Shown piece by piece: positions 14,372 through 31,119 of a DNA stretch of 42,809 bases; position 1 is the first letter of the stretch; every line of letters begins with the position of its first letter. The DNA comes from Candidatus Scatousia excrementigallinarum (GTDB lineage: Bacteria > Cyanobacteriota > Vampirovibrionia > Gastranaerophilales > Gastranaerophilaceae). The translations under genes and the position numbers were made by a program. The DNA lies in NCBI GenBank assembly GCA_018711035.1, contig DVIU01000281.1, positions 1 to 42,809 of the forward strand. Direction: 5' to 3'. The notes below the pieces were generated by a model. The model worked only from the letters and a program-made list of their open reading frames with translations. It made no database searches and was not told where the DNA came from.

Positions 14372-15122
14372 ATGCAAAAAGCTGACATAGTAAGGATTTC
14401 GGGGGGGGGGGCAGCGTAGAACCCTTATAGGAAAAGGTTTTACATTAGCAGAGGTCTTAATTACCTTAGGGATTATAGGCGTTGTCGCGGCAATGACTCT
14501 GCCTTCTCTCATAAACAACACAAAAGGCAAAGAGCTTGAAGCCCGATATAAAAAGGCTTATTCGATTATTACTCAAGCTGTAAACAGAATGAATGCCGAA
14601 CAAGGATTTATTGCCAACTGGTCAAGTTATACGGCTTGTACTGATGAATTTGCCGAAGTTTTCAACAAATACTTTATAATGGCTGTAAATTGCGGGAAAG
14701 CCGGTTGTTCGACTTTTAATGATGATGACGGAAATTATTTGACAAACTATAAGTCTTATACGGGAAAAACCGCTTCTGCTATTTGGTTTGACGACGGGCA
14801 GTTTGTTGTTGCAGATTCTATGTTTATTTCTATCAATCATTGCACAAAATCCAATAAAATTCTTATCAGTGTTGATATTAACGGGAAAGATAAAAACCCG
14901 AACAGATACGGGCAGGACTTCTTTGTATTCCAAATTCAGGATGATGGAAAGGTGCTTCCAATGGGCGCAAAAGGTACATCTGCCGGTGGTGCAGGCTTTG
15001 ACAGCTCTAAACAAAGTGCGGATGATTTCTGTAATAACACATCCACAAGCACTTTAAATGGTTTTACATGTGCATACAAGGCTTCTACAGATAAATCGTT
15101 TTTTTCCAATCTTCCTAAATAA
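14372..15122 (+). CDS. Type IV prepilin-like protein 1, frame interrupted by an 11-G run
   Basis: The ATG at 14372 (AGGAGG, strong promoter) reads MQKADIVRISGGGG..., then meets 11 Gs and runs to a stop (TAG) at 14429. With 10 Gs (or 13) the frame joins the long downstream frame: MQKADIVRISGGGQRRTLIGKG then FTLAEVLITLGIIGVVAAMTLP, a textbook prepilin leader (Gly at -1, Phe +1, Glu +5) and N-terminal helix. The total would be 249 aa. The globular part carries ISVDINGKDKNPNRYGQDFFVF, shared with the second prepilin at 20989. Product: a pilin or pseudopilin for a type IV pilus or type II-like secretion apparatus. The interruption is either phase variation or a sequencing error in the homopolymer. 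Confidence 0.85.
14401..14411. repeat. 11-G homopolymer in prepilin gene 1
   Basis: Eleven consecutive Gs at codon 10 of the leader; 10 or 13 Gs would restore the frame. Candidate contingency (slipped-strand) tract. Confidence 0.9.
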
Positions 15123-19972: not shown

Positions 19973-20005
19973 TTTCGCATAGATATTAAAAGAGAGGGAT
20001 TGTTT

Positions 20006-20959
20006 ATGAGTAAAAAAGTTGCGTTTCTTTTTCCGGGACAAGGGTCTCAATCTGTAGGTATGGGAAAAGATTTATATGAAAGTTGTGAAAGTGCAAAGAA
20101 AGTTTTTGATACTGCCGACAAAGTTTTAGGTAAAAGTATTACAACAATGTGTTTTGAAGGGCCGGAAGAGGCTTTAAAACAAACAGTTAATACACAGCCT
20201 TCAAATGTTACAATGTCAATTGCAGCATTAGAAGCCTTGAAATCCCAATGTGATATTACTCCTTCTTATGTTGCAGGCCACAGTCTGGGCGAATATTGTG
20301 CGATATATGCTTCAGGCGTTATGTCTCTGGAAAATACTTTAAAAGCAATTCAAAAACGTGCTGATTTAATGGGCGCAACAAAAGGCGGAGCCATGTCCGC
20401 AGTTCTTAACGCAACAGAAGAAGCATTGAAAGAATCCTTGAAGGAAGCCTCAAGCGCAGGATACGTTGACGTTGCAAACTACAATTCACCGGCTCAGGTA
20501 GTTATTACAGGTGATGAAAGTGCTGTTGCAAAAGCCGGAGAACTTTTGCTTGCAAAAGGCGCAAGACGTGTAGTTCCGCTTCCTGTTTCAGGAGCTTTCC
20601 ACTCAAAGTTTATGGAACCGGCAGGAAAAGAATTTGAAACATTTGTTTCCGGTTTGGAAATAAATGACGCTTCTGTTCCGGTTATTACAAACGTTGATGC
20701 GGAATCGACAACTCGGGCTTCTGATTTTAAAGAAAAAATGCCTAAACAAATTTATTCGTCAGTTCATTGGACTCAAACAATTCAAAAAATGGCAGCAGAT
20801 GGTGTAGAAATCTTTATTGAAATCGGTCCCGGGAAAGTCCTCGCAGGTTTGAATAAAAAAATTGCACCTGAGGCAAAAGTATTTAATATATTTGATAAAG
20901 CATCACTTGATACAACCGTAGAAAGTTTGAAAGAGGTGCTGTTATGTCAAATAAAATAA
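20006..20959 (+). CDS. fabD: Malonyl-CoA:ACP transacylase
   Basis: 317 aa. Loads malonyl groups on ACP. Seen: AFLFPGQGSQSVGMG at the N-terminus, QPSNVTMSIAALEAL, catalytic Ser in AGHSLGEYCA, Arg in QKRADLMG, catalytic His in SGAFHSKFM, and EIGPGKVLAGL. I use the ATG at 20006, 7 nt after GAGGG; a TTG at 20000 is in frame but poorly placed. The downstream prepilin gene starts 30 nt after the stop, and a tiny frame (20944-20979, MSNKIIANKIN) overlaps the end of the gene. Confidence 0.96.
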   Translation: MSKKVAFLFPGQGSQSVGMGKDLYESCESAKKVFDTADKVLGKSITTMCFEGPEEALKQTVNTQPSNVTMSIAALEALKSQCDITPSYVAGHSLGEYCAIYASGVMSLENTLKAIQKRADLMGATKGGAMSAVLNATEEALKESLKEASSAGYVDVANYNSPAQVVITGDESAVAKAGELLLAKGARRVVPLPVSGAFHSKFMEPAGKEFETFVSGLEINDASVPVITNVDAESTTRASDFKEKMPKQIYSSVHWTQTIQKMAADGVEIFIEIGPGKVLAGLNKKIAPEAKVFNIFDKASLDTTVESLKEVLLCQIK

Positions 20960-20988
20960 TTGCTAACAAAATCAATTAGGAGAAATGC

Positions 20989-21829
20989 ATGAAAAATATT
21001 GAAGTGCCGGTGATTACGGGGGGGGGGGCAAACCAGAACTCTCTCAGCCCAAGCTTTTACAGCTGATTATCGCAAAGAGTTTTTTGCAGAGTTTAACAAT
21101 CGTAAGATAGCTTTTACTCTTGCAGAGGTTCTCATAACCCTCGGAATTATCGGAACGGTTGCAGCTATGACTTTACCTGCTATTGTTCAAAAGCAGCAGG
21201 AAAAAGTTACTATTACTAAATTAAAACAAACCTATAATATCTTGTCGCAGGCAGTAGAAATGGCTCAGGTTAAGTATTCAGATATTCATAACTGGGAAGC
21301 CACAGGTGATACTCAAAAACAAAGCGACCTGTATTTTGAAAGAATTACTGAAAATCTCACGCTTATCAAAGATTGCGGAAATCCATCCTGTTATAATTTC
21401 TGTGAAAATGGTAAAGAGTATGTTGATCTAAAAGGTAATAAAACTTCTGTTGCACCTATTGCGGCTCATCAGGGATTGTTAAAGAATGGTGCAATGTTTG
21501 CAGTTGCCTGGGCTCAGCCTGATAATGGCAAATGGTGGGGAAAGTATGCTGCGATATCAGTTGATATAAACGGTTCCAAAAAGCCAAATACAATAGGTAA
21601 AGATGTCTTTGTATTTGAAATTCGTGACATGTCTGATAATTGGACTACTTATAGAAAACCTTATCTTTACCCGCAAGGTCATTTTTTCTATCTGGAAGAA
21701 TGTTTGAATTATCAAACAAGTGGTAATTGTACAGCATGGGTTATAAAATACGGAAATATGGATTATCTGCATTGTCCGGATAAGTTATCAGTAGACGGCC
21801 CTTATAGCTGTACGGAGGCACAAAAATAA
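20989..21829 (+). CDS. Type IV prepilin-like protein 2, frame interrupted by an 11-G run
   Basis: The ATG at 20989 (AGGAGA upstream) reads MKNIEVPVITGGG... and meets 11 Gs (21018-21028); as sequenced this frame ends at a TAG near 21115. With 10 Gs it continues GGGQTRTLSAQAFTADYRKEFF...NNRKIA and then FTLAEVLITLGIIGTVAAMTLPAIV, the prepilin cleavage region and helix, for 279 aa in total. The globular part contains AAISVDINGSKKPNTIGKDVFVFEI, the same block as prepilin 1, and paired cysteines (CGNPSCYNFC...). It sits between fabD and fabG, an unusual place for a pilin. It may be read from the fabD promoter. Either a phase-variable gene or a homopolymer error. Confidence 0.85.
21018..21028. repeat. 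11-G homopolymer in prepilin gene 2
   Basis: Eleven Gs at codons 10-13 of the leader, the same length and the same relative position as in prepilin gene 1; one G fewer (or two more) restores the frame. Confidence 0.9.
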
Positions 21830-21880
21830 TGTTACAAAAGTTTTACCAAAATTTGTAAAGTAGTGCAAAACCTTTATTTA

Positions 21881-21889
21881 TGGTATAAT
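21881..21889 (+). promoter_or_regulatory. Extended -10 promoter of fabG
   Basis: TGG followed by TATAAT (21884-21889). There is no good -35; the ribosome site AAGGAG follows at about 21906. Confidence 0.6.
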
Positions 21890-21917
21890 TACCGTATTAA
21901 ATAAGAAGGAGATATAA

Positions 21918-22643
21918 ATGTCTGAAAAATTAGCATTAGTAACAGGCGCGTCGCGCGGAATAGGTAAAGCTTGTGCAATTGAACTTGCAAAAGCAGGATA
22001 TGATATTGCAGTAAATTTTGCAGGTAATGAAGAGGCCGCAAATAAAACAGTTGAAGAACTCAAAGGTTTAGGCGTAGATGCTGCTGCATTTAAGTTCGAT
22101 GTTTCTGATAAAGAAGCGGCGGCAAAAGGTGTGGAAGAAGTTCTTGCTAAATTTGGCAGAATTGATGTTCTTGTAAATAATGCCGGTATTACACGTGACG
22201 GTTTGTTTATGAGAATGAGTGCTGAAAACTGGGATGCAGTAATCAACACAAATCTTTCAAGCGCATTTTATGTTTCCCAACCCGTCGTAAAAGTTATGAT
22301 GAAACAACGAAGCGGTGCAATTGTTAACATGTCAAGCGTTGTCGGTGTATCAGGAAACGCAGGTCAGGCAAATTATTCGGCAGCAAAAGCAGGCTTAATC
22401 GGGTTGACAAAAACTCTTGCAAAAGAACTCGGCTCTCGCGGAATCAGAGTAAACGCAATTGCTCCCGGCTTTATTAATACTGATATGACAAAAGATTTGG
22501 ATACTTCAAAGTTCACAGACTTCATTCCTTTGAAACGACTCGGTGAACCTGAAGATATCGCAAAAGCAGTTAAATTTTTGGCCGTAGATGCAGATTATGT
22601 TACAGGTCAGGTTCTGGAAGTAGACGGCGGTTTGATAATATAA
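21918..22643 (+). CDS. fabG: 3-oxoacyl-ACP reductase
   Basis: 241 aa short-chain dehydrogenase, normal for FabG. Reduces 3-oxoacyl-ACP with NADPH. Seen: TGASRGIGKACA cofactor motif, VNNAGITRDGLFMRM, catalytic Ser in NMSSVVGVSGN, YSAAKAGLIGLTK (YxxxK), RVNAIAPGFINTDMT, and the C-terminal YVTGQVLEVDGG. AAGGAG is 6 nt before the ATG. It follows the prepilin gene with its own promoter, so its expression does not depend on the frame state of that gene. Confidence 0.96.
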   Translation: MSEKLALVTGASRGIGKACAIELAKAGYDIAVNFAGNEEAANKTVEELKGLGVDAAAFKFDVSDKEAAAKGVEEVLAKFGRIDVLVNNAGITRDGLFMRMSAENWDAVINTNLSSAFYVSQPVVKVMMKQRSGAIVNMSSVVGVSGNAGQANYSAAKAGLIGLTKTLAKELGSRGIRVNAIAPGFINTDMTKDLDTSKFTDFIPLKRLGEPEDIAKAVKFLAVDADYVTGQVLEVDGGLII

Positions 22644-30722: not shown

Positions 30723-31119
30723 GGGGACGTTTTGGATTAGACAGGATGTTCGGTGAATGCAGGCTGCGAGTCCGGGCGCTGTTCCCGGTTATCAACGAGC
30801 GAACTAAATTAAATGCTAACAACGTAATTAAAGCTGACTTCTCTAGAGCTTACGCTTTAGCTGCTTAGTCGGTAATTAGCTACTTATATTGCCCAGCTTG
30901 CCGGTGATATAGGTTCATTATGCAAGCCGCAGTGCGTTGATGATGGTAGGCGTATCAAGATACCCATCAAGGGTTTAGAGTTTCCCTGAAATAAAACCTG
31001 GGGCTGATTTATAAGGTTTTGATTTTCCCCCGAATCAGCCGAGAGAATGAAAATCTACACTCGTAGAGGTTTGTCTTTATCCATTTTGGACAGGGGTTCG
31101 ACTCCCCTCGTCTCCACCA
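30723..31119 (+). ncRNA. ssrA: tmRNA (transfer-messenger RNA)
   Basis: 397 nt, one-piece. The 5' end GGGGACG (30723-30729) pairs with CGTCTCC (31109-31115), followed by A and an encoded CCA. The T-arm is CAGGGGTTCGACTCCCCTCG. It rescues stalled ribosomes and tags the nascent peptide. The resume codon is GCT at 30815; the tag reads ANNVIKADFSRAYALAA and stops at TAG 30866-30868, a tag that opens ANNVI and ends in ALAA. The 3' end doubles as the attachment-like repeat of the island downstream. Confidence 0.97.

Follow-up and report, generated by a model that had tools for sequence, protein, structure and literature searches.

The window, which is the whole 42.8-kb stretch of DNA that was analysed, comes from a member of the Gastranaerophilales, an uncultured gut bacterium that is a non-photosynthetic relative of the cyanobacteria. 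It carries two type IV prepilin genes, here called gene 1 and gene 2, in each of which a short leader beginning with ATG is separated from the prepilin by a run of G residues. Their features, together with the neighbours of gene 2, are:

14372..14400, + strand: leader of gene 1, 29 nt, from the ATG (14372) to the G run, MQKADIVRIS
14401..14411, + strand: 11-G run of gene 1, +1 relative to the in-frame length of 10
14412..15122, + strand: prepilin gene 1 (PF07963 and TIGR02532)
14417..14419, + strand: stop TAG of gene 1 in the resident (+1) frame, two codons past the run
20000..20959, + strand: fabD, 5' neighbour of gene 2 (TIGR00128)
20979..20982, + strand: Shine-Dalgarno-like GGAG 5' of gene 2 (from the sequence)
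20989..21017, + strand: leader of gene 2, 29 nt, from the ATG (20989) to the G run, MKNIEVPVIT
21018..21028, + strand: 11-G run of gene 2, +1 relative to the in-frame length of 10
21029..21829, + strand: prepilin gene 2, readable only with the run in frame; stop at 21827-21829
21064..21066, + strand: stop codon in the 11-G frame of gene 2 (from translation)
21918..22643, + strand: fabG, 3' neighbour of gene 2 (TIGR01830)

The earlier note had described gene 2 as a second prepilin with an 11-G run in its leader, its prepilin frame one base off, and had placed the run at the same leader position and with the same offset as in the first; this description holds, both genes having a 29-nt leader, 11 G and a +1 offset. 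The start it assigned to gene 2 (20989) likewise stands, whereas the end it assigned (21169) falls inside the gene, which reaches 21829. When translated from its ATG at 11 G, gene 2 yields MKNIEVPVITGGGANQNSLSPSFYS and then meets a stop, the prepilin frame (GGGQTRTLSAQAFTADYRKEFFAEFNNRKIAFTLAEV...) being linked to the ATG solely at a run length of 10 (mod 3). Its prepilin motif FTLAEVLITLGIIG (the FTLAE motif) begins at 21113. In profile searches gene 1 scores above the cut-off for both PF07963 (23.4 bits) and TIGR02532; gene 2 scores 19.6 bits against the N_methyl profile PF07963, slightly below the cut-off of 21.2, and has the same N-methylation motif as the rest of the family, conserved in a 31-sequence alignment (A1). 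An AlphaFold2 model of gene 2 (pLDDT 84) predicts a single long N-terminal helix and strands, as in type IV prepilins; Foldseek against the PDB returned no significant or confident fold match for it, the best being a FimA pilin (E=0.39). The class III signal with its N-methylation motif is shared with type IV prepilins and pseudopilins (PF07963, TIGR02532), and profile searches also recovered from this genome one prepilin peptidase (PF01478) and four T4P/T2S-type ATPases (PF00437), so that both a peptidase and an assembly ATPase accompany the prepilins. What sets these genes apart from the usual type IV prepilins is the interruption of the leader by a G run and the large size of the family. 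The marks of a sortase-pilus switch, a sortase-type pilin and a dedicated sortase within one cluster, were absent: genes 1 and 2 show only the N-methylation motif, and fabD and fabG flank gene 2. Among the genomes checked, a prepilin occupies the fabD-fabG spacer (20960-21917 of the window) in this genome only; in six relatives, compared with the proteins of the window, the spacer holds a different small gene or is empty. Elsewhere the window encodes a tmRNA (30723-31119, + strand) with the tag ANNVIKADFSRAYALAA.

Apart from the two 11-G runs, no run of G or of C in the window reaches six; base composition predicts about 0.0006 runs of 11, and 8-G matches number eight against 0.15 in shuffles. 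The argument that equal tracts in two genes are no accident is thus upheld, and we rule out a chance origin by both the shuffles and the base-composition expectation. The 29-nt spacing from ATG to run seen in both genes is also the commonest one in the genome.

The genome as a whole (2.81 Mb in 304 contigs, with an estimated contamination of 7.8%) has 131 matches to the prepilin N-terminus and 105 runs of at least 8 G. The earlier note had proposed searching all prepilin genes for G tracts. In a set of 114 prepilin bodies, each of at least 120 codons and with duplicates removed, 64 carry a G run from which the frame stays open as far as the FTLAE motif. These runs comprise 10 G in eight genes (at least one of which, L107, is cut by a contig end), 11 G in 52 and 12 G in four. 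Relative to the best start codon, 56 of the gated genes are at +1, four are in frame (L111, L113, L125 and L099), two are at -1, of which one (L135) is an artefact of start-codon choice and reads +1 from another ATG, and two gave no call. This ON rate departs from the expectation of one third with P=5e-7, in counts that are partly non-independent since paralogues share ancestry. Additional gated leaders, outside the 64, stop at contig ends. Many contigs, among them C27, C93, C135, C148 and C247, end about 20-30 bases beyond a G run; the probable cause is that assembly fails at the repeated leaders.

We scanned 84,980 species genomes for runs of nine or more G and then for the prepilin motif. 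Among the matches listed, those with titles naming a group are MAGs of Gastranaerophilales, Melainabacteria or Cyanobacteria, together with one Fusobacterium sp. CAG:439, and several are 'uncultured bacterium' records. It is by these matches that the window itself is placed in the Gastranaerophilales. The leader layout has a patchy distribution in the order: 49 of its 286 genomes have it, spread over 10 of 50 genera. A search of viral contigs for the gated-prepilin pattern gave no match, and we dropped a phage origin for these genes on that account. In eight relatives with 40 gated genes, 31 are at +1, with run lengths of 9, 10, 11, 12 and 14, eight are at -1 and one is in frame (1/40; P=2e-6 against one third); among named MAGs more widely, in-frame genes number 11 of 80. 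In G061, a genome of another genus, 48 of 49 genes have exactly 10 G, a -1 register and an early stop in the frame in which they rest; the remaining gene is its single ON copy, with 11 G and in frame. G009 likewise has one ON copy.

The offset is retained between most of the close interspecies pairs inspected, even where a substitution at the edge of the run has altered its length, as between L123 of this genome (G11) and its counterpart in G012 (G12), or between G006 (G11+A) and G008 (G12). Run lengths nevertheless vary, tandem copies with identical flanks in G006 having G12 versus G10. G011, a genome of the same genus, has an ortholog of gene 1 (contig C3; 92% amino acid identity), and a copy of this ortholog in G011 matches one in a named Gastranaerophilales MAG (L181) without a difference over 528 bases; gene 1 stands at +1 versus +2 in its 95%-identical G011 ortholog. 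Homologues as a whole do not share a single conserved offset, as those of a programmed frameshift gene would: it is +1 in this genus and -1 in g7, with exceptions and in-frame copies in both.

Post-run segments are free of stops in the prepilin frame in 18 of 18 cases and contain a stop in the resident frame in all 18, and on this pattern both the leader and the segment after the run are coding. The informative measure was stop content by frame; codon-position entropy, calculated for the leaders, carried no information. When post-run segments were recoded synonymously and stops within four codons counted, early stops in the resident +1 frame of this genome numbered 30 of 33 against 14.1 expected, and those in the resident -1 frame of the -1 lineages 33 of 41 against 13.3; these counts are inflated by shared ancestry, and the two lineages with opposite registers agree nonetheless. 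The alternative frame showed no early-stop excess in either of these two sets; in the eight relatives a smaller excess was present in the other frame as well. Gene 2 of the window is an exception to the pattern, its stop coming later. For the pilin bodies, dN/dS lies between 0.06 and 0.41 in nine of 11 pairs, which indicates that they are under purifying selection; of the other two, one stands at 1.3 on the basis of few changes and one lacks synonymous changes altogether.

These genes share with SSR phase variation a homopolymer that lies within the coding sequence and determines the frame by its length, and a close parallel is furnished by Bifidobacterium breve UCC2003, in which G tracts switch the sortase-pilus loci bbr_0113 and bbr_1889 (PMC9187656). 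There the annotated G11 is OFF and one G fewer is ON, run lengths are mixed in culture with about 30% G10 (the ON length) in the mouse gut, and pili were seen in in-frame mutants (PMC9187656). Both cases concern a gut commensal with a pilus gene that is OFF in the reference genome and ON at one G fewer, and in both a very short upstream ORF leads through G10-G12 into a main ORF without a start of its own. B. breve, a member of the Actinomycetota, differs in that its pili are of the sortase type and its switched loci number one or two per genome, whereas here about 64 scattered type IV prepilins of one genome, in another phylum, have a shared resting register and resident-frame stops. The poly-G contingency loci of Campylobacter jejuni are similar in their intragenic G8-G12 runs, surface-related genes and AT-rich genome (PMC4965091). 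Its G runs slip at a rate near 1e-3 per division (cited in PMC4965091) and its colonies spread across G8-G12 (PMC4965091). In contrast to its 29 loci, mainly of surface-modification enzymes with lengths spread over G8-G12, the present system has one gene family, nearly one length and nearly all copies OFF.

Since long G runs slip and the B. breve switches have the same anatomy, we favour phase variation by replication slippage with a default-OFF setting, which probably accounts for both window genes and for dozens of type IV prepilins per genome. Genes 1 and 2 would then belong to a large type IV prepilin family whose leader is broken by a hypermutable G run. Slipped-strand mispairing at replication would add or drop one G; since the ATG and the prepilin are joined at a single length class only, which for most genes here is 10 (mod 3), such slips would turn the gene ON and OFF reversibly. 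In this genome, as in its relatives, most of the population would be OFF at nearly all gated genes, one slip away from ON, with translation in OFF cells ending a few codons past the run in most of them. A given pilin would be made by a minority of cells, differing from gene to gene, resulting in a mixed surface repertoire. Slippage in living cells, the ON minorities, the export of the pilins and the benefit of variation are what we infer from this arrangement. MutS is present, and thus loss of mismatch repair does not explain hypermutation.

Free slippage would predict a less uniform register than the one observed, in which 52 of 64 genes here and nearly all in G061 have one length. A fixed mutational attractor length is by itself insufficient, as genes with an in-frame length of 11 have for the most part 12 or 10 G and almost never 11. 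With the main class (11 G, ON at 10) removed, the +1 preference is weak, so that an attractor combined with avoidance of ON still fits. Of the coordinated population state which the earlier note had considered, the shared default-OFF register stands, in dozens of genes, with no sign of active coordination. We regard as doubtful the proposal that the shared resting register is itself a regulated state, namely a lineage-wide frame gate on the pilin family, opened by low-level recoding at the G run in all cells or, through altered replication or repair of G runs, in many genes at once.

A related alternative is that the off-by-one register is the working state, with ribosomes (or RNA polymerase) slipping on the run so that each cell makes some pilin. 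We keep it as the main rival because the register is uniform within each genus and retained in most orthologues; the early stop past the run in the resident frame, the purifying selection on coding sequence to either side and the rarity of in-frame copies would also suit it. However, in-frame copies do exist, a short slippery site would suffice without pure runs of 9-15 G, and the opposite registers of two genera do not fit a single ribosomal mechanism. Moreover, in E. coli and Buchnera only A/T homopolymers showed transcriptional insertions, G/C runs being reported as non-slippery for bacterial RNA polymerase (PMC5574713), and on balance we consider recoding unlikely. The run could instead serve mainly as a DNA or RNA structure, such as a two-layer G-quadruplex (minimum 11 G), or as a recombination or regulatory site, with a secondary effect on frame. 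Its pure G composition and the lack of correlation between leader type and body phylogeny are in keeping with such a role, against which resident lengths of 9 and 10 exist and the frame-specific stops imply that reading frame matters, leaving it very improbable.

Decay of surplus prepilins knocked out by the runs would explain why most copies are out of frame. It is disfavoured, and to us highly improbable, in view of the mostly low dN/dS, the full-length bodies without further lesions and the recurrence of the leader layout across the order. The earlier note had also entertained a bias in base-calling of long G runs; under this, or under an assembly bias, the true lengths would be in frame. 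Homopolymers are indeed prone to error, and caution over annotated G-tract lengths has been urged in print (PMC9187656), but at least eight non-prepilin genes of this same assembly carry G8-G11 runs within an unbroken frame (4/62 prepilins in frame versus 8/10 others; Fisher P=2e-6). In a second genus, at 10 G, the offset has the opposite sign; in both the +1 and the -1 lineage it is the frame set by the assembled length, and no other, that is enriched in early stops; and contig names in the record titles imply several assemblers. The bias is contradicted by these observations and is scarcely credible.

Leaders and bodies appear to have separate histories. On a tree of mature pilin bodies from the prepilins of this genome (L001-L160), gated and ungated leaders require 37 changes versus 35.6 when shuffled, and the two main leader classes (A and B) 15 versus 14.4. 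Leader type is thus uncorrelated with body phylogeny, implying that leaders were exchanged or often gained and lost; this suggests that 5' modules may have been exchanged among prepilins. Homologues that differ between species in whether they are gated have unrelated upstream sequences. The exchange would be located at the conserved FTLAEVLITLGIIG segment.

Genomes with known G-run switches usually have either some tens of them, in genes of mixed kinds, or just one or two at pilus loci, and a search of one literature library turned up no paper on this gated prepilin family. In this uncultured gut lineage a single surface-protein family has dozens of near-identical gates, almost all shut in the same register. 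With that register reversed in a sister genus, the family provides a natural experiment on the way in which the resting state of contingency loci is set jointly by selection and slippage. The arrangement also points to a large concealed repertoire that could serve in attachment or in the evasion of phages or of immunity, and standard gene calling would misread the gated pilins as missing or truncated.

Genes of this assembly with in-frame G8-G11 runs are found at L083:1004-2116, L089, L108, L112, L139 and L141, and include a glycosyltransferase family 92 gene and a radical SAM gene. A polysaccharide pyruvyl transferase gene (PF04230; L083:6969-8063, + strand) has a 29-nt leader and a 10-G run and is out of frame; judged from its sequence, this is the same type of gate on a surface-glycan gene.
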